Positions 5,461-34,794 of a DNA stretch of 34,794 nt are shown piece by piece. The DNA is from Symbiobacterium sp. (lineage in GTDB: Bacteria; Bacillota; Sulfobacillia; UBA995; UBA9673). The DNA is taken from NCBI GenBank assembly GCA_020725405.1, contig DYFB01000008.1, positions 1 to 34,794 of the forward strand, in the 5' to 3' direction. Each line of letters opens with the position of its first letter. Position 1 is the stretch's first letter. The notes under the pieces were generated by a model. That model had not been told where the DNA came from. It worked only from the letters and a program-made list of their open reading frames with translations, and did not search any database. Both the position numbers and the translations under genes were made by a program.

Positions 5461-6792
5461 CTACCTCCTCGAGCCGGACGGTCCGGGACGCTCCCCGGAC
5501 GGCAGCAGCCGCCGGAGTAGCCTCGCCCCGAGGCTCACGGGCGCAACCTCGACGTAGGTCTGGTCGCCCGGCTCGGGAACCGTGACGACCCCCAGGGCGC
5601 CGCCCTGGTGGAAAGGCGCTTCAAGGCGCCGCGGTCCGGGCCGCAGGCTCCTCCGCCGCCGGTGGAAGTCGGGCGGGATGACGTCCAGGACCAGACGCCC
5701 CTCGTCGGCGGCCGCCCGCAGGCTTTCCTCGAGCTGGGCTCGCCCGGTGACCGGCCGGCCGTTGACCGCGGTGACGACCCAGCCCGGCCCGAGGCCGAGT
5801 TCTCTGGCCAGAGTTCCCGGTGGAGCGTCGAGGACCATCGTACCCGCGGCCGGCGGGACGAAGTAGGGCGTCCCGGCCGACTCGAGCCGGTTTCCGATCC
5901 TGACCACAGCCTCGTGACCGAGAGGCGCGAAGAGAGCCGCCGCCCAGACCAGTGGCTCCCAGCGGGTGGCGAGCACGCTGAACCCCAGGAGGACGAGGCT
6001 GTAGAGCGCCAGGCGGCCTGCCGTCCGCCTGGCCTTGAGGACGGGCGGGCCGGTCACGGCGAGGTCGCCGTAGCCCAGGGTGGCCGGCAGGGCGTGCAGG
6101 AAGAAAACCGCCCCGGGGTGGGCCAGTATCTCCGGAGTCGTCCGGAACAGGGGCCACCAGTCCGGCATGGCTATCCCGCCCTGGGCGGCCTCGACCGGCG
6201 AGATGACCGCCAGGATGAGAAGGCAGATGGGCACCGGCCAGTAGCGCTGGAGCTGGAAGGCGCCGATGGGGCGGCCCTGTCTCTCGACGGGCACGGGAGT
6301 CGCACCGGCCGCGCCGTTCAGAAAGATGAGCAGGCTCTCCATGAGGTGGAGGACGGCCACGAGGCCCATGAGGCTCGGGATGCTCACCTGGGGGAAGCCG
6401 AAAAGCAGGGAGCATAGGGAAACCAGTCCACCGGCGTAGGCGAAGCACATGAACCTGACATTCAGGAGCATGAGAGCCAGCGCGGTTCCGAGAACCCAGA
6501 TCATGCCGCCGCCGTCGGGAAGGAGGGAGATACCGAAGAAGGTCATGACGTAGCTCCCGGCCAGCCCGACAACGAGGCCCTCGAGCATGGCCACCGCCGT
6601 CAGCCGGACCGGGTCGCCGTACTCCCGCCCGTAGAGGAAGCCCTGGAGGCGAAGGGTCCTCGCGTACTGGCTGGACACGAAGGCAACCATCGTCCAGTAG
6701 AACAGGAAGCGCACACCCAGGGCCGGATTGTAGACGACCTGGGGAGCCGTCTCGAGGACGCTCAGCCCGATATCGCGAAAGGGGAAGGGCAA
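5461..6792 (-). CDS. MinJ-like polytopic membrane PDZ protein
   Basis: This 443-residue protein has a polytopic membrane N-terminal part with about eight hydrophobic segments up to about residue 305. A PDZ domain follows at about 315-375 (APPGTLARELGLGPG, VNGRPVTGRAQLEESL), then a basic cytoplasmic tail. This layout and its place next to a CtpB-type protease match Bacillus subtilis MinJ (YvjD), which bridges DivIVA and MinD in division-site selection. The assignment is by architecture and synteny, since sequence conservation in this family is low. The TTG start has a modest AGGT sequence upstream and lies 6 bases after the ctpB stop; the next gene begins 4 bases after this stop, so the genes form one operon. 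A PDZ membrane protein of other function remains possible. Confidence 0.7.
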   Translation of the reverse strand: MPFPFRDIGLSVLETAPQVVYNPALGVRFLFYWTMVAFVSSQYARTLRLQGFLYGREYGDPVRLTAVAMLEGLVVGLAGSYVMTFFGISLLPDGGGMIWVLGTALALMLLNVRFMCFAYAGGLVSLCSLLFGFPQVSIPSLMGLVAVLHLMESLLIFLNGAAGATPVPVERQGRPIGAFQLQRYWPVPICLLILAVISPVEAAQGGIAMPDWWPLFRTTPEILAHPGAVFFLHALPATLGYGDLAVTGPPVLKARRTAGRLALYSLVLLGFSVLATRWEPLVWAAALFAPLGHEAVVRIGNRLESAGTPYFVPPAAGTMVLDAPPGTLARELGLGPGWVVTAVNGRPVTGRAQLEESLRAAADEGRLVLDVIPPDFHRRRRSLRPGPRRLEAPFHQGGALGVVTVPEPGDQTYVEVAPVSLGARLLRRLLPSGERPGPSGSRR

Positions 6793-6798
6793 CGAGAC

Positions 6799-8052
6799 CT
6801 AGCCCCCGTTCTCCTGCTCCAGCGCCTGCCTGAGGATATCCACGGCGTACCTCAGCTGGGTGTCGCGCGGGTCCTCCGGGTCACTCCAGGTGAAGCCGTC
6901 CCAGTCGATGGGCCGCCCTTCGCCGTCAACCTCCGGTAGAGCCAGCCTGACGTGGGGCTCAATGCCCTGACCCGAGATGTGCTCCCCCTCCGGGGTAAGC
7001 CATTTCTCTGTCGTCAGCCGCAGGACCGAGCCGCCTCCCAGCTCGTAGGGGGTCTGGATGCTGCCCTTGCCGAAGGTGGTCACGCCCACCAGGATACCGA
7101 CGCCGTTGTCCTTGATGGCCCCGGCCAGAATCTCCGCGGCGCTGGCCGTGCCCTCGTTGATGAGGACGACCAGGGGCACGTCTACCGCGGCGCTCCCCGT
7201 CCCGGAGACGACGGCGACCCGCCCGCCGCGCCCGACGCGTTGGACGATGGTCCCCTCGGCGACGAAGAGCCTGGCGATGGTGATGCACTCCTGGAGAAGT
7301 CCGCCGCCGTTGTTTCGCAGGTCCAGAACGAGGGCCCGCAGCCCCTTCGACTTAAGGTCGGCCAGAGCCGCGCCGAACTGCTCGGGGGTCTTCGCGCTGA
7401 ACTCGGTTATCTGGATGTAGCCGAGCCCCTCGGCGGGATAGAGCATGTCCCCGAAGGCACTCGTGATGATTATTCTCTCGCGGACGAGGGTGACGTCGAA
7501 GGTCTCCTCGGTCTCCCCCGGGGTGCCCCGGGCGATGGTCAGGGTGACCGGCGTGCCCTCCTTGCCCCGGATGAGCCCGGCGACAATGTCGCTCGAGAGA
7601 CCGACGACGTTCCGGCCGTCAACGCCGACGATCCGGTCCCGGGCCCGGAGCCCCGCGCGCTCGGCCGGGCTCCCGCGCATCGGGGAGACGACGCACACGT
7701 AATCGCCGATCTTCTCGACGACCATACCGACCCCGACGTATTCCCCGGTCAAGGATATGTCGAAGTCCTCGTACTCCCGGGGGTCCATGTAGTAGGTGTA
7801 GGGATCCCCGAGGGCGTCGGCCATTCCGGCCAGCGCCCCCTCAACAAGCACCGCGGGGTCGACCTCATCGATGTACTTCGTCAGGATGAGGCGGTACTGG
7901 TTGGTCAGGCGCGAGAGCTCGCCGGTCCCGGCCAGCCCCACGCCCCAGTAATAGCCGATCCACGGAATGGCTCCTGTGGCCAGACTGTAGGTCACGAGAT
8001 TCGTGACCAGGATGATGACGATGACCGTCAGGATGGTGCGGTTGCGCTTCAA
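6799..8052 (-). CDS. C-terminal processing peptidase, S41 family (CtpA/CtpB type)
   Basis: This 417-residue exported serine protease has an N-terminal signal anchor (residues 7-24), a cap region, a PDZ domain (about 105-190) and the S41 catalytic core. The catalytic Ser304 lies in NEGTASAAEI and the Lys329 general base in TTFGKGSIQ, with LDLRNNGGG at 244-251. In spore formers CtpB cleaves SpoIVFA to trigger pro-sigma-K processing, while CtpA-type members process other envelope proteins; the sequence does not decide between these. The start is TTG, supported by GGGGAG 8 bases upstream. A 254-bp gap separates it from the EnvC-like gene, so it may have its own promoter, although I saw no convincing one. 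It heads an operon continuing through the MinJ-like gene to uvrB. Confidence 0.92.
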   Translation of the reverse strand: MKRNRTILTVIVIILVTNLVTYSLATGAIPWIGYYWGVGLAGTGELSRLTNQYRLILTKYIDEVDPAVLVEGALAGMADALGDPYTYYMDPREYEDFDISLTGEYVGVGMVVEKIGDYVCVVSPMRGSPAERAGLRARDRIVGVDGRNVVGLSSDIVAGLIRGKEGTPVTLTIARGTPGETEETFDVTLVRERIIITSAFGDMLYPAEGLGYIQITEFSAKTPEQFGAALADLKSKGLRALVLDLRNNGGGLLQECITIARLFVAEGTIVQRVGRGGRVAVVSGTGSAAVDVPLVVLINEGTASAAEILAGAIKDNGVGILVGVTTFGKGSIQTPYELGGGSVLRLTTEKWLTPEGEHISGQGIEPHVRLALPEVDGEGRPIDWDGFTWSDPEDPRDTQLRYAVDILRQALEQENGG

Positions 8053-8306: not shown

Positions 8307-9488
8307 CTAGCGCTTCTCGAGGTGGTCGAGCGGGTTCACCGGCTCACCCTTGAAGCGGATCTCGAAGTGGAGGTGAGGTCCTGTGCTGTAGCCGGTGGAG
8401 CCGACCTGACCGATGACCTGGCCCTGGTTGACTATCTCGCCCAGCCGGACGTTGTAGCTGTCGAGGTGGGCGTAGAGCGTGGACCAGTTGGCGCTGTGAC
8501 TGATGACGATGCACTTGCCGTAGCCACCGGCCCAGGTGGCCAGGATGACCTTCCCCGCCGCCGAGGCCCTGACCTCCCGGCCGCGCGGGGCGGCGATGTC
8601 GATTCCTGTGTGGAGCCGCCACTCCTTCAGGATAGGGTGGTAGCGCATGCCGAACTCCGAGCTTATCCAGCCCTGGAGTGGCCACTTGAAAGTCGGCTTG
8701 GTACCTTCCGACGTCCCGAGTTCAGCGATGTAGCGCTCGAGCTCCTTGGAAACCATCTCGAGCTCGTCCAGGGCCCGCCGGACCTCGGCCTTATCGTTCC
8801 TCAGCCGGGCGAGCAGCTCGTCCTGGGCCCGCTTGTGCCGGGCGACCTCGGCCCGCCGGGCCGAGGTGTCGTTCCGGAGCCGGATAAGCTCCGCCCGCTG
8901 CTCTTCCAGATAAAGCTTCTTGCTCTCGAGCTGGCGCTTCTCCTCGGAGACCTCATTGAACAGGGCGATGTCACTGACGACGATCTGCCGGAGGAGTTCC
9001 AGGCGGGAGAGGAGATCGGAAAAGGTTCTCGCTCCGAGGAGGGCCTCGAGGTAGTGGACATAACCAACCTCGCTCATCGCCCGTATCCGGGTGAGCATGA
9101 GGTTGGTCCGCTTCTCCAGCCGGACCTCGGCGTCGGCTATTTCAGCCTCGGTGACCGCAATGGCCTGCTCGGTCTGGGCGAGCCGGGTCTCCAAGGCCTG
9201 CAGCTGCCCGTGCAGGACGTCGAGCTGCTGCTGGATGCGGTTTATGTCAGCGACGAGGGACCGCTCGCGCGAGACGAGTCGGTCGAACTCGGCCTGTTTG
9301 AGCTCCATCTGCCGCTGGAGGCGTTCCATTTCCCGCCAGGCGTCCTCGAGATCGCCGGCCTCGGCCAGGCCGGACCCGACCGGCCCCGGAAGCAGGAGTC
9401 CCTGGGGGGCGAGGGCCACGACGAAGGCCAGAAGACACAGGACTCCGAGCAGCCGGCCGGTCCTCTTGGGATAGGCGAGGGGTCTCAT
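8307..9488 (-). CDS. EnvC-like murein hydrolase activator / M23 peptidase
   Basis: This 393-residue protein has a signal peptide (about residues 1-43) and a long coiled coil (about 46-255). A C-terminal LytM/M23 domain (about 268-393) follows. The zinc ligands of active M23 enzymes are present: His293 and Asp297 (RLHTGIDIAAPRG) and the His372-Leu-His374 motif (GPHLHFE), with His341 as the likely catalytic His. It could therefore be an active endopeptidase rather than a degenerate activator such as E. coli EnvC. Its ATG overlaps the ftsX stop by 4 bases, which fits the known pairing in which FtsEX drives a coiled-coil hydrolase or activator across the membrane (EnvC, PcsB, CwlO). Substrate and activity are inferred from family and context. 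Confidence 0.9.
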   Translation of the reverse strand: MRPLAYPKRTGRLLGVLCLLAFVVALAPQGLLLPGPVGSGLAEAGDLEDAWREMERLQRQMELKQAEFDRLVSRERSLVADINRIQQQLDVLHGQLQALETRLAQTEQAIAVTEAEIADAEVRLEKRTNLMLTRIRAMSEVGYVHYLEALLGARTFSDLLSRLELLRQIVVSDIALFNEVSEEKRQLESKKLYLEEQRAELIRLRNDTSARRAEVARHKRAQDELLARLRNDKAEVRRALDELEMVSKELERYIAELGTSEGTKPTFKWPLQGWISSEFGMRYHPILKEWRLHTGIDIAAPRGREVRASAAGKVILATWAGGYGKCIVISHSANWSTLYAHLDSYNVRLGEIVNQGQVIGQVGSTGYSTGPHLHFEIRFKGEPVNPLDHLEKR

Positions 9489-10363
9489 GTCCGTAGGAAC
9501 CTCCTCAGGGACAGCACGCTGCCCAACCCGCCGATGACGGCGCCGAGACCACAGAGGAGGAGCCCGAGTCGCCAGGCCAGCGGCAGGACCGGGACGACGG
9601 GGATGAACGAGACGGCCCGGTAGACGCCGTTGACAGCCCAGGCGTAGGCCTGCCAGGCCCCGATAGCGGCGATGGCCGCCCCGAGAAGACCGAGGAGCAT
9701 GCCCTCGAGGAGTAGCGGCCAGCGGATGAACCAGTCGGTCGCGCCGACGAGCTTCATTATGGAAATCTCCTCGCTCCGGGCGAGGATGGTCAGGCGCACC
9801 GTGTTGGAGATGACGAAGAGGGTGGCGATGACCATCAGACCGACGAGGACGAGACCGCCGAAGTGGATGGCCGAGGTCAGGGGAAGAAGCCGCTGGATGA
9901 GCTCACGCTGGTAGCCGACGTCCTCCACCCCACCGAGACCGGCGGCGGCCGCGGCGACATGCTCTATCCAGGCCGGACCCTGGGTGAAGACCCGGAACGA
10001 GTCGCGGAGGGGGTTCATCTCGTCGATGCCCTCCAGAAGATCGGCCCGCGGGCCGAGCTGCTGTCTCAGGGTGGCCAGGGCCTCCTCCTTGGAGACGTAG
10101 ATGACCTCGGTGACGCCCTCGAGGGCCTCGACCAGGGCCCGGAGATCCTCGAGAGCGGCCTCGTCGAGGCCGGCGCTCAGGTAGAGCCTGACCTCGAGCT
10201 CACCCTCGATGGTCTTGACCATGTGGTCCACGTTCACGGCCGCCAGAAGAAAGACGGCGAGGATGAAGAGGGAGACGGCGACCGTCGTGGTCGAGGCCAG
10301 GCTCATCAGGGCGTTGCGCCTGACGCTCACCAGCGCCTCGCCGAGGATCATCCGGACGCCCAC
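9485..10363 (-). CDS. ftsX: Cell division protein FtsX
   Basis: FtsX is the membrane subunit of the FtsEX complex, which couples cytoplasmic ATP hydrolysis to extracellular peptidoglycan hydrolase activation. The product of about 292 residues has one N-terminal membrane segment (TTVAVSLFILAVFLLAAV), an extracellular domain with the typical EVRLYL and EVIYVSKEEAL elements, and three C-terminal membrane segments. The motif RSEEISIMKLVGATDWFIR, diagnostic of FtsX, lies in the cytoplasmic loop between them. I chose the GTG at 10363 because a GGGGAGGGGGAGGGG purine tract sits directly upstream; ATG at 10351 is the alternative. It follows ftsE with a short gap and overlaps the EnvC-like gene. Confidence 0.95.
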   Translation of the reverse strand: MGVRMILGEALVSVRRNALMSLASTTTVAVSLFILAVFLLAAVNVDHMVKTIEGELEVRLYLSAGLDEAALEDLRALVEALEGVTEVIYVSKEEALATLRQQLGPRADLLEGIDEMNPLRDSFRVFTQGPAWIEHVAAAAAGLGGVEDVGYQRELIQRLLPLTSAIHFGGLVLVGLMVIATLFVISNTVRLTILARSEEISIMKLVGATDWFIRWPLLLEGMLLGLLGAAIAAIGAWQAYAWAVNGVYRAVSFIPVVPVLPLAWRLGLLLCGLGAVIGGLGSVLSLRRFLRT

Positions 10364-10382
10364 GCCCCTCCCCCTCCCCTCT

Positions 10383-11063
10383 CTACTGGCTGTAGTCCCC
10401 GCGCTGGCGGTCCCGGACAAGACGGCCGTGGTCCAGGGTGATGACGCGCCGGCGGGCGGCGTCGACGATAGCCTTGGCGTGGGTAGCCATGAGGACCGTC
10501 GTTCCGCGCCGGTTTATCTCCAGCAGCAACTGGACTATCTCCCACGAGGTTGCGGGGTCCAGGTTGCCGGTGGGCTCGTCAGCCAGCAGGACCAGGGGGT
10601 GGTTGACGATGGCCCGGGCCAGAGCGGCCCGCTGCTGCTCGCCGCCGGAGAGCTCGGCCGGGTAGGCTTCGCCCTTGTCGACCAGGCCGACGAGCTCCAA
10701 CGTCGCCGGAACGCGCCGGGCTATCTCCTTTGGGCTCGCCCCGACGACCCGCATGGCGAAGGCGACGTTCTCGTAGGCCGTCTTGCGCGGGAGGAGCTTG
10801 AAGTCCTGGAACACCACGCCGATGTTCCGCCTGAGGTAGGGCACGGCCGCCGGCCGGAGCTTGGAGACGTTGACTCCGTTCACGAAGACGTAGCCGCTCG
10901 TGGGAAGAGTCTCCCGGTAGACCAGGCGGACCAGCGTGGATTTGCCGGCCCCGCTCGGTCCCACGACGAAGGCGAACTCGCCCTTGGGTATGGTCGCCGT
11001 GATGCCGTGAAGGGCTGCCGTGCCGTTCGGGTAGCTCTTGGAGACGTCGTAGAACTCGATCAC
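10383..11063 (-). CDS. ftsE: Cell division ATP-binding protein FtsE
   Basis: FtsE is the ATPase of FtsEX. The 226-residue ABC protein has Walker A GPSGAGKST (residues 35-43), the Q-loop (VFQDFKLL), the signature LSGGEQQ (138-144), Walker B with the catalytic Glu (LLADEPTG, 159-166) and the switch His195 (MATHAK). The length and the N-terminal MIEFYDVSKSYPNGTAAL are typical of FtsE. The GTG start has GGAGGGG 7 bases upstream. It is the first gene of the ftsE-ftsX-EnvC unit and lies about 197 bases downstream of the predicted start of a sigma-H-like promoter. In B. subtilis FtsEX is needed for timely entry into sporulation, which makes that promoter biologically plausible. Confidence 0.97.
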   Translation of the reverse strand: MIEFYDVSKSYPNGTAALHGITATIPKGEFAFVVGPSGAGKSTLVRLVYRETLPTSGYVFVNGVNVSKLRPAAVPYLRRNIGVVFQDFKLLPRKTAYENVAFAMRVVGASPKEIARRVPATLELVGLVDKGEAYPAELSGGEQQRAALARAIVNHPLVLLADEPTGNLDPATSWEIVQLLLEINRRGTTVLMATHAKAIVDAARRRVITLDHGRLVRDRQRGDYSQ

Positions 11064-11099
11064 GGGGCGGCCCCTCCTCCGCTGCCGGCATAGGGCGGC

Positions 11100-11154
11100 G
11101 GGGCCCCGGACGCCGAGGCCCCCGGCCCGGACCCGGACAAAGGCCGGGCGGGCC
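11100..11154 (-). promoter_or_regulatory. Structured 5' leader of ftsE with two hairpins
   Basis: Between the predicted transcription start and the ftsE start codon the minus strand can form two G+C-rich hairpins. The stronger (11124-11154) has an 11-bp stem interrupted by a 2-nt bulge and a 7-nt loop. The second (11100-11122) pairs GGGGCC with GGCCCC around an 11-nt loop and lies about 37 bases before the GTG. No U-run follows either, so factor-independent termination is not obvious. They could affect translation, pausing or mRNA stability. No riboswitch family is recognised. Confidence 0.4.
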
Positions 11155-11257
11155 CGAAGAGAAAACAGAAGACAGCTAAAACGAGGTGCTCCCCAATGCG
11201 CAGCGATATCCGAAGAAGGCCGCTTCAGTGGTTATGTAAAACGCGGCTCTTATGTGT

Positions 11258-11281
11258 GGTCCTGGAGAATTCGACAGGACC
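11258..11281. promoter_or_regulatory. Inverted repeat overlapping the ftsE promoter
   Basis: A perfect 7-bp inverted repeat, GGTCCTG and CAGGACC with a 10-base centre, spans the -10 element and likely start site of the sigma-H-like promoter. A second inverted repeat (CCCCCC 11280-11285 and GGGGGG 11300-11305) flanks the -35 element and shares two bases with it. A dimeric repressor could bind here, but no candidate regulator is encoded in the window. Confidence 0.35.
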
Positions 11282-11295
11282 CCCCGATATCCTTC
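11267..11295 (-). promoter_or_regulatory. Sigma-H-like promoter of ftsE-ftsX
   Basis: On the minus strand GAAGGATAT (11295-11287), an 11-base spacer and GTCGAATTC (11275-11267) match the sigma-H consensus RnAGGAwWW, 11-12 bases, RnnGAATwW almost completely. Only the last -10 base differs. Transcription would begin near 11260 and produce a leader of about 197 nt before ftsE. No sigma-A promoter is evident in the same gap. Confidence 0.65.
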
Positions 11296-11342
11296 AAATG
11301 GGGGGCAAGGTTCGCGGGGAAACGTCAGGAAATGCTAAGCCG

Positions 11343-12296
11343 CTAGGCCCTCTTCAGGCTCACCGCCTTCCTCGCCGCATCGGCGACGGCCCGGGGCGTC
11401 AGGCCGTAAGCCTCGAGGAGTTCATCGGGCCGGCCCGACCGGCCGAAGCGGTCGGCAACCCCGACCCGGACCACGGGCACCGGCAGGGTCCCGGAGAGGA
11501 ACTCGGCGACCGCGCCCCCCAGACCACCGATGACGCTGTGCTCCTCGGCCGTGACCACGGCCCCGGTGCGGGCGGCCACGGCGAGCAGGGTCTCCTCGTC
11601 GAGAGGCTTCAGGGTCGAGGCGTTGACCACGGCGGCGAGGACCCCGTCGGCGGCTAGGGACAGAGCGGCCTGGAGACAGATGTCGACCATTATGCCCGAG
11701 GCGACCAGGGCCACGTCCCGCCCTTCCTTCAGGACGTCGTAGCGGCCGATGGTGAACGACCGGCCGTCCGGGTAGATCACCGGGACCGGCGCCCGCCCCA
11801 GCCGGAGGTAGACGGGTCCCGGGTGGGCGACGGCCGCCCGGACCGCGGCCCTGGTCTCGGGACCGTCCGCCGGGACGATGACGGTCAGGTTCGGCAGAAC
11901 GCGGGCAAGGGCCAGGTCCTCGAGCGCCTGGTGGCTGGCCCCGTCTTCGCCCACGGTCAGCCCCGCGTGGGTCGCGGCGATCTTCACTCCGAGGGCGGGG
12001 TAGGCGACGGACATCCGGATCTGGTCGTAGACCCGACCCGGGGCGAAGACGGCAAAGGTGCTGGCGAACGGTATCTTTCCGGCCGCCGCCAGGCCAGCGG
12101 CGATGCCGATCATGTTGGCCTCGGCTATCCCGGTGTTGAAGAACCGCTCGGGGAAAACCCGGGCGAAGAGGCTTGTCTTTGTCGAGCCCGAGAGGTCCGC
12201 GTCGAGAACGACGATGTCCGGATTCTCCCGCCCGATTTCGACGAGTTCCTCCCCGTAGGCGTCACGGGTCGCCATACGCCTGGTCTCGGCGGCCAT
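11343..12296 (-). CDS. Transketolase, C-terminal (pyrimidine-binding) subunit
   Basis: This 317-residue protein is the C-terminal half of a split transketolase. It supplies the pyrimidine-binding domain and the C-terminal domain, and would pair with the upstream subunit to move two-carbon units between sugar phosphates. The conserved TPP-activating glutamate is Glu59 (NTGIAEANMIGIAAGLA), followed by TFAVFAPGR and the THAGLTVGEDGASHQALEDL loop. Its ATG overlaps the stop of the N-terminal subunit by one base (TGATG). Upstream in-frame residues are low-complexity Gly/Arg/Pro and antisense-like, so I placed the start at MAAETRRMATRDAYG. Whether it serves the pentose phosphate pathway or another ketol transfer cannot be told from sequence. 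Confidence 0.92.
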   Translation of the reverse strand: MAAETRRMATRDAYGEELVEIGRENPDIVVLDADLSGSTKTSLFARVFPERFFNTGIAEANMIGIAAGLAAAGKIPFASTFAVFAPGRVYDQIRMSVAYPALGVKIAATHAGLTVGEDGASHQALEDLALARVLPNLTVIVPADGPETRAAVRAAVAHPGPVYLRLGRAPVPVIYPDGRSFTIGRYDVLKEGRDVALVASGIMVDICLQAALSLAADGVLAAVVNASTLKPLDEETLLAVAARTGAVVTAEEHSVIGGLGGAVAEFLSGTLPVPVVRVGVADRFGRSGRPDELLEAYGLTPRAVADAARKAVSLKRA

Positions 12297-13249
12297 CAGC
12301 CCCGCCCCCCTCCCTTGCCTTTCCTGGTCCCGCTCCTGCCGTCCCGCCCTGGGCCCGGACCACCCGGAGCGGCCCCGGCCGTTCCAGGGCTCTCCGGGCC
12401 TCCCGAAGCCCCGAGAGCCCGCAGGGCCTCCTCCAGCTGCTCTCCGGATGGGGCCTTCCCGTGCCACTCGGCCCGGTTCTCCATGAAGCCGACCCCCCGC
12501 CCTTTGACCGTCCGGGCGAGGATGACCGTAGGGCGGCCGGGCTGGCGGTCGGCCGTCTCCAGGGCGTCAAGAATCTGGACCATGTCGTGCCCGTCGATGG
12601 AGAGGACGTTCCAGCCGAAGGCTCGCCACTTGTCGACCAGCGGCGAGATTGACATAACCTCCTCCACCGGGCCGTCGATCTGAAGGCCGTTGCAGTCGAC
12701 AATGGCCGTAAGGTTGTCCAGCTTAAAGTGGACGGCGGACATGGCCGCCTCCCAGACCTGCCCCTCCTGGAGCTCCCCGTCGCCGAGCATTACGTAAACC
12801 CGCCAGGCGGCCCGGTCGAGCTTCGCAGCCGCGGCCAGACCGACCCCGAAGGAGAGCCCCTGGCCGAGAGAGCCGGTCGACGCCTCGACGCCCGGGGTGC
12901 TCTTCATGTCCGGATGTCCCTGGAGGATGGAGCCGAGACGCCTGAGACCTCGGAGCTCCTCGACCGGGAAGAAGCCGCGCTCGGCGAGGACGGCGTAGAG
13001 GGCCGGAGCGGCGTGTCCCTTGGAGAGCACGAAGCGGTCCCGCTCCGGCCAGGCCGGATCCGCGGGGTTGAGCCTCAGCACGCGGAAATACAGGGCTGTC
13101 AAGAGGTCGGCCGCGGACAGCGACCCTCCCGGGTGGCCCGACCCGGCCAGGCCGATCATCCCGATGATGTGGCGCCGCACCCGGGCGGCGACCTGCCGGA
13201 GCTCCTCCGGACCGGCCCGGGGCCCGGTCAGACTCGTCGTTCCGCTCAA
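12296..13249 (-). CDS. Transketolase, N-terminal (TPP/PP-binding) subunit
   Basis: This 317-residue protein binds the thiamine pyrophosphate diphosphate group. It carries the phosphate-site histidines His39 (GSGHPGGSLS), His79 (SKGHAAPALYA) and His112 (GHPDMKSTPG), the GSLGQGLSFG motif, and the GDG...N metal-binding motif starting at residue 156 (MLGDGELQEGQVWEAA) and ending at Asn187. The C-terminal 45 residues are a Gly/Pro/Arg-rich tail outside the fold. The TTG start overlaps the stop of the DUF5693-TagA gene by 4 bases, so the split transketolase is co-transcribed with a wall-polymer glycosyltransferase. A supply of sugar precursors for the polymer is possible but unproven. Confidence 0.92.
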   Translation of the reverse strand: MSGTTSLTGPRAGPEELRQVAARVRRHIIGMIGLAGSGHPGGSLSAADLLTALYFRVLRLNPADPAWPERDRFVLSKGHAAPALYAVLAERGFFPVEELRGLRRLGSILQGHPDMKSTPGVEASTGSLGQGLSFGVGLAAAAKLDRAAWRVYVMLGDGELQEGQVWEAAMSAVHFKLDNLTAIVDCNGLQIDGPVEEVMSISPLVDKWRAFGWNVLSIDGHDMVQILDALETADRQPGRPTVILARTVKGRGVGFMENRAEWHGKAPSGEQLEEALRALGASGGPESPGTAGAAPGGPGPGRDGRSGTRKGKGGGRG

Positions 13250-16002
13250 CGTTCTTCACCGCCACTCTCCGACCCGGACCCGGGGCTCGTCATCCTGGAT
13301 CGGGGCGCCCGCCCGAAGGCGGCTCCCAGAACCGCGAGGACGAAGCCGGCGAGAGCCGGCACCCGCCTGAGACGGGCCCGGGGGCTCGACAAGATGCGAT
13401 ACAGCCACTCAAGGTTCAGCCGCCGGACCCACGCCGGCGCCCTCCGGGTGTCCCCGGAGAGGACGTCCAGAGAACCGCCGGCTCCCACGGCGACCACGCC
13501 GCCCAAGGCTCCTCGCCGCGCCGCGAGCCAGAGCTCTTGCTTGGGACTGCCGAGGCCGGCCACGAGGAGTTCGGGCCCGGCCGCCCGGATGGCCTCGACA
13601 ACCTCGTCGTCATCGGTGAAGTAGCCGTGTTCCGTTCCGACGACCCGGAGGCCGGGATAGCGAGCCGCCAGCGCGGCCGCCGCTCGTGCGGCGACCCCCG
13701 GGCGGGAGCCGAGGAGGAAGACCCGTAGAGGCCCGCTCTCACGGGTACGCTTGAAGAGCCCGGTGAGGAGGTCGACCCCCGCGACCCGGGTGGCCAGAGG
13801 TCGCCGGCTCAGGACCCGGGAGGCCAGGACGACTCCGACGCCGTCCGGGACCAGGAGGTCGGCCGAGTTGAGGACGGCCCGGAACGAGGCGTCCCGGCTG
13901 GCCCGGTAGAGCATCTCCGGGTTCGGCGTGAAGACAAGGCGGGCCCCACCGGTCCGTCCGGCCTCCCGGATGAGGTCGGATACCTGGGCCACGGCTCCGT
14001 CGAGGCTGACCCGATGGATCCGCACCCCGAGAATGTCGACGGCAGCGGGCCGGGCGTTGGGCCAGGTGTCGGACGGAGACCCGGGTCCGTCCGGTCCGCT
14101 CCGGAGGCCGGAGCCGCCGCTAGGCCGCTGCCGGGGGAGAAACGCGGACGTGACCCAGACTGCAGCCAAGCCCAGAGCCAGGCCCAGGAGGGCGCCGTTC
14201 GCTGTGCGGGCGAAGGTGAGGGCCAGCGGAGTCCGGACGTGCTCGAAAGAGTTGACAACGGAGACCAGGCCGACGGCCCCGACCGCCGCCCAGGCCGGGA
14301 GCCACCGCCTCCGACCCGTCCAGGCGAGGTAGGTCCCCAGGATGAGAGCGGGATGGCCGACGAGGAACTCCTTCAGGCGGGGTTGGGCGTAGAGGGCTCG
14401 ATCGAGCCAGGTCCTCACGGCCACCTCGGCCGACGTCACCGGAAGCCACGGCTGGTCGCCCGACCGGCCGACGTAGACCACCGCCGCCAGGCCCACAGCC
14501 AAGGCCAGGAAAACATGGCCGACCTCCAGGGGCCTCCCGGCGAGGGAGCGGAGCTGACGCCCCAGGGACCGGAGACGCGCGCCGGGCCCATCCGAGGAGC
14601 CCGACGCGAGCCAGGCCGCGCCTCCAAGGACGGCGACGGGCGGGACGACATAAGATAGCTTCACCCCGCGGAAGTACTGGATCTCCATGGCGAAACTGGC
14701 CTCGGCCATGAACCCGGCCACGACCAGCCCGCCCAGGACGGCCACACCGACGGCCGCGCCGACGTGTCGCAGGCCGGCCAGCCACGGATGCGGCCGCTCC
14801 CGAATCCCTTCGCCGGTGGGCTCGAACCACCGTGCGGCCACCCACAGCCCGGCCAGGGTCGGGTAGACGAGAGCGGCCCAAAGGGCGCCGAGTTTCCGCA
14901 CCGAAGGCTCGACTCCTCCGCCCCACCCCCCCAGGAGGGTGACCGCCGTCAGCCCGACGAGGGCGGCCGTCAGCGCGGCTCCTACCTTCGGAGCCCTCCT
15001 CCACCGGCCGAGGCGCCCCAGAGACAGGAGATCGAGGGTAAGGAGGGTCGCCGCCCAAGGCCCCAGGACGAGGACGACGAGTAGCGCCGGCGGCGCGGTA
15101 AAGGCCCCGGACGCGGGCCGCGCCGGGCCGACCTGGAAGCCGCCCCGTTCGAGGGCCCGCCGGACTTCCTCAACATAACGCAGGTTCGCCGCCAGGAGTC
15201 CGGTCTCACCCCCGGCCCCCGGGCGGGTCGTCCACCAGGCCGGAGGCTCGGTGGGAAAGCCGTAGAGGTCGAGCCAGACAGCCCGAAGGCTGCGCTCCTT
15301 GACCGAACGGGCTATCTTCGCCGCCACCCGTTCGGGCGAGTGCGCGCCGACGGCCGGAGGGTGATAGATCCGGACGAACGCGTAATCGAGAAGGGCCGCC
15401 AGCCGCTCGGTCCCGGCGAGGGGGACATAGCTCAGCTGGCTCGGGTCCTCCACGAGACCGACCTCGAGGCCGAGCTCCTTCAGGCCGGCGACAGTCCGCC
15501 CGAGAGCCGCCGGGTAGCCGGGGATGGCCTCGCCGTCGAAGACGACGATTCCGGCGACGACGCCTCGGGCGACGAAGGAGCCGATCCCGTCGAGGAGAGC
15601 CTCAACCTCCGCTTCCGTCTGGCCGGCCCGTCCCCGGAGGAGGGGAGCGTACCGGGGCCCACCCGGCCGGCCGAGAGCTGGACCGCGCTCGGCCTCCAGG
15701 CTCGCGGCGAAGGCCGGGTCGGCGATGACCGAAGTCAGTCCGGCGCGGGCGAAGCTTTCGAGGACTTCGGCCACGGGCCGCCCCTCCCGGTCAGCCACCT
15801 GGACGACGGCGCCGAGCTCGGCCGCCAGCTCGACCGTCCAGCCCTGGGCCCGGTCATGGGCGATCCGGGGTCCCACGGCCAGCAGGGCGGCCAGGCCGGC
15901 CAGAGCGAGCAGGACACGCAGGACTGAGCGCACAGGTGGCGGCCACAGCGGTGGATGGGCCGCGCCGCCCGGGACTCCCGTCAGCGAATCTCCACTCCCC
16001 AT
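13246..16002 (-). CDS. DUF5693 membrane protein fused to TagA/WecG glycosyltransferase
   Basis: This 918-residue protein joins two families. Residues about 25-630 are DUF5693-like: a signal anchor, an extracytoplasmic domain (about 45-300) and a polytopic membrane region. That region holds GRSGDQPWLPV (near 516), LKEFLVGHPALILG (near 546) and a VNSFEHVRTP segment, all shared with the giant DUF5693 protein at 20989. After a Pro/Gly/Ser linker, residues about 655-895 form a complete WecG/TagA/CpsF (GT26) domain with TPNPEML, VPDGVGVV, RVAGVDLL, VAGLGSPKQELWLA and LEWLYRI motifs. TagA-type enzymes add ManNAc or a related sugar to undecaprenyl-linked primers. The fusion places DUF5693 in polymer assembly. 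The start lies 3 bases after the preceding stop with no clear ribosome-binding site, so re-initiation is likely. Confidence 0.88.
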   Translation of the reverse strand: MGSGDSLTGVPGGAAHPPLWPPPVRSVLRVLLALAGLAALLAVGPRIAHDRAQGWTVELAAELGAVVQVADREGRPVAEVLESFARAGLTSVIADPAFAASLEAERGPALGRPGGPRYAPLLRGRAGQTEAEVEALLDGIGSFVARGVVAGIVVFDGEAIPGYPAALGRTVAGLKELGLEVGLVEDPSQLSYVPLAGTERLAALLDYAFVRIYHPPAVGAHSPERVAAKIARSVKERSLRAVWLDLYGFPTEPPAWWTTRPGAGGETGLLAANLRYVEEVRRALERGGFQVGPARPASGAFTAPPALLVVLVLGPWAATLLTLDLLSLGRLGRWRRAPKVGAALTAALVGLTAVTLLGGWGGGVEPSVRKLGALWAALVYPTLAGLWVAARWFEPTGEGIRERPHPWLAGLRHVGAAVGVAVLGGLVVAGFMAEASFAMEIQYFRGVKLSYVVPPVAVLGGAAWLASGSSDGPGARLRSLGRQLRSLAGRPLEVGHVFLALAVGLAAVVYVGRSGDQPWLPVTSAEVAVRTWLDRALYAQPRLKEFLVGHPALILGTYLAWTGRRRWLPAWAAVGAVGLVSVVNSFEHVRTPLALTFARTANGALLGLALGLAAVWVTSAFLPRQRPSGGSGLRSGPDGPGSPSDTWPNARPAAVDILGVRIHRVSLDGAVAQVSDLIREAGRTGGARLVFTPNPEMLYRASRDASFRAVLNSADLLVPDGVGVVLASRVLSRRPLATRVAGVDLLTGLFKRTRESGPLRVFLLGSRPGVAARAAAALAARYPGLRVVGTEHGYFTDDDEVVEAIRAAGPELLVAGLGSPKQELWLAARRGALGGVVAVGAGGSLDVLSGDTRRAPAWVRRLNLEWLYRILSSPRARLRRVPALAGFVLAVLGAAFGRAPRSRMTSPGSGSESGGEER

Positions 16003-32802: not shown

Positions 32803-32831
32803 AGGTTCTCTGTTTGCCTGATTTATCCTCC
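32803..32831 (-). promoter_or_regulatory. Sigma-H-like promoter candidate before the 244-residue gene
   Basis: On the minus strand GGAGGATAA (32831-32823), an 11-base spacer and AGAGAACCT (32811-32803) match the sigma-H layout. The -35 is perfect and the -10 reads GAAC instead of GAAT. It lies about 90 bases before the ATG at 32713. Confidence 0.35.
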
Positions 32832-34655: not shown

Positions 34656-34794
34656 ATCGGGTAGGAGGGGAGCGTCTCGCTCCCCGTCCTCCCACACCAC
34701 CGGACATGCGGGTCCGCATCCGGCGGTTCAGCAAGGTTGACGAAGTGTGCGGTATGTGGCGTGCAAGCTGATGAGGCCCTGGGCCTGCCAGTAG
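34656..34794 (-). mobile_element. Group II intron, 3' end (continues beyond the window)
   Basis: Read on the minus strand, the right edge holds the end of an intron-encoded protein gene, then domains V and VI of a group II intron. Domain V (34729-34696) forms a 9-bp lower stem, a 2-nt bulge (TG) and a 4-bp upper stem with a GACC loop, with a CGC-type triad containing a G-U wobble. Domain VI (34693-34659) pairs GGG-A-GGA-C-GGGGAGC with GCTCCCC-TCCT-A-CCC and leaves one bulged A at 34662, the likely branch point. The intron would end CCCGAT at 34656. The 3' exon begins 36 bases before the sigma-H -35 of hpf, so the promoter is left intact. Confidence 0.85.
34728..34793 (-). CDS. Group II intron reverse transcriptase/maturase, C-terminal fragment (partial)
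   Basis: The last 21 codons of an open frame entering from the right edge read YWQAQGLISLHATYRTLRQP plus Cys, then TGA. The pattern of Tyr-Trp, AQGL-SL and an LRQ end fits the C-terminal tail of group II intron-encoded proteins. The stop codon overlaps the first bases of domain V, the usual compact arrangement. The rest of the gene lies outside the window, so whether it is intact is unknown. Confidence 0.65.
   Translation of the reverse strand, partial: YWQAQGLISLHATYRTLRQPC

Follow-up and report, generated by a model that had tools for sequence, protein, structure and literature searches.

A conserved, predicted SigH-type promoter upstream of ftsEX in a Symbiobacterium sp. genome, with a Spo0A box core superimposed on its -10 element

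The window analyzed here is the whole 34,794-nucleotide (34.8-kb) stretch of a Symbiobacterium sp. contig, DYFB01000008.1, from a 2.23 Mb genome in 97 contigs that is 95% complete. Four genes in this window share one direction, those for FtsE, FtsX, a PcsB coiled-coil M23 hydrolase, and a CtpB-like S41 protease. FtsEX is an activator of septal wall hydrolases, and the hydrolase encoded alongside is its probable partner. The features of the locus, in the coordinates of the window, are as follows.

5461–6792, minus strand: unclassified membrane ORF beside the S41 protease gene, possibly in the same operon (no NCBIfam or Pfam match)
6799–8052, minus strand: CtpB-like S41 protease, possibly in the same operon as ftsEX (PF03572, PF22694 CtpB_N-like, TIGR00225)
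8307–9488, minus strand: PcsB/EnvC-like M23 peptidoglycan hydrolase, probable FtsEX partner (PF01551 and PF24568 CC_PcsB)
9485–10420, minus strand: ftsX, the ORF as listed, whose true start may be internal (NF038347 over cut-off; PF18075 and PF02687)
10383–11063, minus strand: ftsE (TIGR02673, 285.2 bits, over cut-off)
11064–11262, minus strand: predicted 5′ leader of the SigH transcript, with the family-conserved blocks GAGCCGCG..ACATAA..AAGCGGCC..GCGCATYGGGGAGCA (alignment of four family members)
11258–11281, no strand: 7-bp inverted repeat GGTCCTG-N10-CAGGACC, judged to be chance rather than an operator
11269–11275, minus strand: -10 element RnnGAAT (GTCGAAT) of the SigH-type promoter (exact consensus match; spacing kept in relatives)
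11270–11276, minus strand: TGTCGAA, identical in sequence to the Spo0A box core (core from PMC3485338) and superimposed on the -10
11287–11295, minus strand: -35 element RnAGGAwWW (GAAGGATAT) of the SigH-type promoter (exact consensus match; AGG[AG] kept at fixed spacing in relatives)

Read on the minus strand, positions 11295–11269 are GAAGGATAT CGGGGGGTCCT GTCGAAT, which fits RnAGGAwWW-N11-RnnGAAT with 0 mismatches; the -35 is exact, and the -10 is exact at N11, where a spacing of 11–12 bp was taken as the criterion for SigH. The first-pass annotation had described a near-perfect sigma-H fit at the correct spacing with no vegetative promoter in view, and both descriptions hold; a scan of positions 8500–15500 returned no sigma-70-type site. 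The promoter site lies ∼50 bp past the stop of the upstream transketolase half-gene and ∼200 bp 5′ of the ftsE start, a position that predicts a 5′ end near 11260–11263. No intrinsic terminator was found at this promoter in the window. When up to one mismatch to the SigH consensus is allowed, the 34.8-kb window yields 3 matches against a shuffle mean of 0.06. A second exact match (34620–34594, minus strand) precedes hpf (TIGR00741, PF02482), ∼50 bp from its likely ATG (34545); just upstream of that promoter, at the contig end, Rfam places a group II intron match (34656–34728, minus strand, 48.5 bits). A one-mismatch site (32805–32831, minus strand) is found ∼90 bp before an ORF (32713–31979) with no Pfam or NCBIfam match.

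The genome encodes both SigH (TIGR02859, 384.6 bits, over cut-off) and Spo0A (TIGR02875, over cut-off), and similar sites recur in it. With the ftsE site included in each count, the generic SigH consensus has 9 sites against 0 for the reversed-pattern control, and AGGAWN12-13BGTCGAA has 7 against 1. These sites precede spo0A (locus L038), sigA (inside dnaG), divIVA, an EF-G gene, two spoVS genes, and hpf, as well as cmk, a subtilase gene, ubiX, plsY, genes for a flavoprotein and an MFS transporter, and a gene for a protein with copper-amine-oxidase N and AMIN domains. Of these, dnaG, ubiX, plsY, and the subtilase, flavoprotein, and transporter genes were named by eye from the translation, and the spoVS assignments were confirmed by place; cmk, ubiX, plsY, and the MFS transporter gene have no known SigH link. 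Each of the two spoVS genes (L295 and L302) sits behind an exact SigH consensus site. Known SigH targets of B. subtilis include sigA, through promoter P3 in dnaG, spoVS, and hpf/yvyD. Among relatives, the same -35, spacing, and GAA are present upstream of spoIIAA (25/30), spo0A (17/30), and spoVS (32/47). In the published table of C. difficile SigH promoters, those of fusA1, spo0A, spoIIAA, spoVS, and sigA2 share this layout (PMC7438776), and the B. thuringiensis spoVS promoters with this consensus are reported as SigH-dependent (PMC8510167).

If the ftsE site were a promoter of this kind, then its boxes should recur upstream of ftsE in relatives, as the first-pass annotation had anticipated, and they do. 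Within the class, 35 of 39 genomes (25/28 families) have both boxes at the fixed spacing, as do 69 of 102 other genomes of the phylum (39/61 families), so that 64 of the 89 families sampled overall have a SigH-type site before ftsE. The class sample derives from 41 genomes, less four without a full ftsE match or upstream DNA (G007, G009, G010, G015), plus G091 and G129; the phylum sample derives from 107 genomes with FtsE, less 4 class members and G082. For genomes with two FtsE matches, the better one was kept, and two genomes with short upstream DNA (G028, 71 bp; G147, 135 bp) were scored as misses. The misses in the class are G014, G027, G028, and G039, of which G027 carries AGGT..TGTCGAA. 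SigH scored over cut-off in 35 of 41 relatives; outside the class, the strict motif is missing from 33 of the 102 phylum genomes, though most of those tested have SigH. A wider sample gave the motif in 75 of 109 ftsE upstream regions, where Markov controls gave 0.3. Among the initial 30 class loci with upstream DNA, AGG[AG]-N13/14-NGTCGAA is present within 420 bp of ftsE in every case (30/30), vs only 3 of 80 named FtsE-relative loci from many phyla, all three Firmicutes by title (Thermohalobacter berrensis, a Thermacetogenium MAG, and Firmicutes UBA911). Among the same 80 loci, Thermosyntropha has a relaxed site at ftsE, and the motif is absent from Peribacillus (L047), the Lachnospiraceae, and the loci titled to other phyla. 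The distance from the motif to the ftsE match ranges from ∼50 to 280 bp across relatives, which argues against conservation through proximity alone. With conservation this far above control and at varying distance from the gene, we regard a functionless chance match as scarcely credible.

Two further observations were made on the strict sites of relatives. In 13 of 104, where 0.9 would be expected, an intrinsic-terminator-like hairpin with a T run starts at the end of the -10 (G033, G052, G065, G072, G075, G086, G095, G106, G112, G115, G133, G143, and G149). A SigH transcript would start inside such a hairpin and so escape it, and read-through from upstream would be stopped; this arrangement would insulate ftsEX and leave SigH as its main driver. 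WalR-box-like direct repeats are located 20–30 bp 5′ of the SigH -35 in G011, G016, G017, G036, G040, and G144. By their consensus, WalR boxes lie near the promoter in 12 of 104 regions against 5.2 expected, and none is present in this window.

The -10 of the ftsE site is also a perfect match to a second kind of element. The core of the 0A box, bound by Spo0A, is TGTCGAA, with contacts at G2, C4, and G5 (PMC3485338). We compared the -10 elements at ftsE with those in 30 spoIIAA, 30 spo0A, and 47 spoVS upstream regions, counting only regions with a generic site and taking the site nearest to the gene where there were several, by which rule G034 and G101 count as non-TGTCGAA despite a strict site farther upstream. 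TGTCGAA is present at 83 of 109 generic ftsE sites and at 0 of 57 spoIIAA and spoVS sites (Fisher p 3e-24, with related genomes treated as independent). The T that normally follows GAA in SigH promoters is found at only 30/109 ftsE sites, compared with 41/57 for spoIIAA and spoVS. Three genomes (G054, G097, and G135) have TGTAGAA at ftsE in place of TGTCGAA. The spo0A promoter was left out of the test because it may have 0A boxes of its own; its sites carry TGTCGAA in 1 of 17 cases and TC in 5 of 17.

This fixity at ftsE, together with identity to the 0A box core, could mean that the element is primarily a Spo0A site on the promoter of another sigma factor and that its likeness to a SigH promoter is secondary. 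The distribution of the motif is in agreement with such a role, as within the 109-region phylum sample it occurs in 73 of 98 genomes with Spo0A and in 2 of 11 without, and several genomes that are SigH-positive and Spo0A-negative lack it (G066, G073, G077, G107, G014, and G039). Against such a role, two genomes with SigH and no Spo0A match retain the element (G013 with TGTCGAA, G011 with CGTCGAA), as does family f58 (G067 and G108), where the Spo0A matches are weak; the three genomes with TGTAGAA at ftsE also count against it. A 0A box does not need an AGGA at a fixed distance of 12/13 bp, and that distance is kept; 18 of the 109 ftsE sites do not start with T (11 C, 4 A, and 3 G); and the scan around the ftsE promoter offers no sigma-70 site. 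We therefore consider a primary Spo0A site improbable.

A related possibility is that a different alternative sigma factor of closely similar specificity reads the AGGA..GTCGAA promoters. The statistical difference of the ftsE -10 from those of spoIIAA and spoVS could be taken in this sense, as could the 13–26 AGGA..TGTCGAA sites found in each of several other genomes. That abundance, which includes sites that precede spo0A, by coordinates, in G058, G145, and G156, may also mean that TGTCGAA is simply a strong SigH -10 in these lineages, a point against its selection as a 0A box. Against a separate sigma factor, the same form of site precedes spo0A in the genome studied here. The C. difficile SigH table also has TGTCGAA at spo0A, ssuA, and lplA (3 of 40 rows as counted), where the AGGA -35 and the layout are like those of the ftsE site and where expression falls in a sigH mutant (PMC7438776). 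A second sigma factor of this specificity thus appears slightly less probable still than a primary Spo0A site, and SigH is the preferred reader of the ftsE promoter.

Those three C. difficile upstream regions are bound by the DNA-binding domain of Spo0A (PMC3485338). The apparent overlap of 0A box and SigH -10 in that organism comes from our own comparison of PMC7438776 with PMC3485338, and the consulted text of neither paper states it. We consider it quite possible, at somewhat under an even chance, that TGTCGAA at ftsE is a functional 0A box; with about the same reservation, Spo0A∼P may compete with the SigH polymerase at the ftsE promoter. Repression would be more probable than activation, since the box lies over the -10 and since the 0A boxes of spo0A in B. 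subtilis act mainly as repressive sites (PMC12090719).

Repressor gating had been proposed in the first-pass annotation on a different basis, a perfect 7-bp inverted repeat. The repeat is there as described, with arms at 11258–11264 and 11275–11281, 7/7 paired around a 10-nt loop, and it spans both the -10 and the predicted start, as the operator of a dedicated repressor might. Its symmetry is at the level of chance, however: in so GC-rich a window a repeat of this kind is expected about 0.91 times per 279 bp, 12% of all 38-bp windows contain at least part of one, and the palindrome is absent from the aligned leaders of three other family members. We accordingly rejected the palindrome as an operator and consider that role very unlikely. 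Of the earlier proposal, the SigH promoter stands, on the evidence of sequence, and gating through the palindrome falls away. If a second regulator acts here, then the sequence points to Spo0A, through the TGTCGAA core, as a possible candidate.

The predicted leader was considered as a structured cis-regulatory RNA, and this too was rejected: no Rfam family matched the leader over its gathering score (one sub-threshold match, E 1.1, lies on the opposite strand), and RNAalifold found no covariation among 4 sequences, with 0 of 9 predicted pairs showing a two-sided change. Primary sequence blocks are shared by two families (window 11160–11262, minus strand, and loci L009, L010, L011, L015, L017, and L031), consisting of ACATAA and a word like GCATCGGGGAGCA. 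In the window, the ACATAA block takes the form TTACATAA, with 1 match against 0.04 expected.

The reading that we prefer is that the site is a SigH-dependent promoter for ftsE-ftsX, the PcsB-like hydrolase, and probably the CtpB-like protease, and we hold this with high confidence. It is well supported because the boxes, an exact motif in this window, are conserved, SigH is encoded in the genome, and sites of the same type lie at known SigH targets; use of the ftsE site by SigH in vivo is what we infer from these observations. Weighing against this reading are the 33 phylum genomes without the strict motif, the sites in this genome before genes that have no known link to SigH, and the absence of ftsE from the C. 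difficile table. SigH RNA polymerase would recognize AGGATAT and GTCGAAT and start near 11260–11263, and production of the septal wall-cutting machinery would therefore begin or rise as cells pass into stationary phase and sporulation. Since the same -10 doubles as a perfect Spo0A box, we tentatively suggest that ftsEX may be expressed at low Spo0A∼P and turned down at high. Taken as a whole, a composite switch across this phylum of endospore formers, in which one 7-bp word serves as SigH -10 and as Spo0A box, is a more speculative proposal, with perhaps one chance in three or a little better in our estimation. In such a switch, ftsEX would be turned on by SigH at the transition and off again as Spo0A∼P rises, and the outcome would be a burst of hydrolysis in the septal wall, timed to coincide with the decision to sporulate.

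The arrangement has partial precedents. The B. subtilis SigH regulon agrees with it in promoter consensus and in several target genes (spo0A Ps, PMC12090719; also sigA P3 in dnaG, spoVS, and hpf/yvyD), and differs in that no report of ftsEX being directly under SigH, for B. subtilis or any other organism, turned up in the open-access literature searched. The Peribacillus ftsE upstream region (L047) likewise differs in having no SigH-type site. The C. difficile promoters of spo0A, ssuA, and lplA belong to genes other than those found here, and ftsE does not appear in the published SigH promoter table for that organism (PMC7438776). A functional likeness is FtsEX-CwlO of B. subtilis, in which FtsEX controls a hydrolase of the cell wall and has a part in how cells enter sporulation; loss of FtsEX delays that entry, acting through CwlO (PMC7828314). 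In place of CwlO, the locus studied here has a PcsB-like M23 hydrolase whose gene belongs to the ftsEX cluster itself, and the link to sporulation here would also be transcriptional.

These findings support the notion that the ftsEX site is a genuine, deeply conserved SigH-type promoter, in which the palindrome would be incidental and Spo0A a possible second layer. If this is true, then ftsEX would belong to the core of the regulon for the onset of sporulation in this phylum, which suggests a wiring of the cutting of the septal wall to the decision to sporulate. The word shared by SigH and Spo0A raises the question of whether the switch for the division hydrolase is repressed by the very regulator that commits the cell to sporulate.
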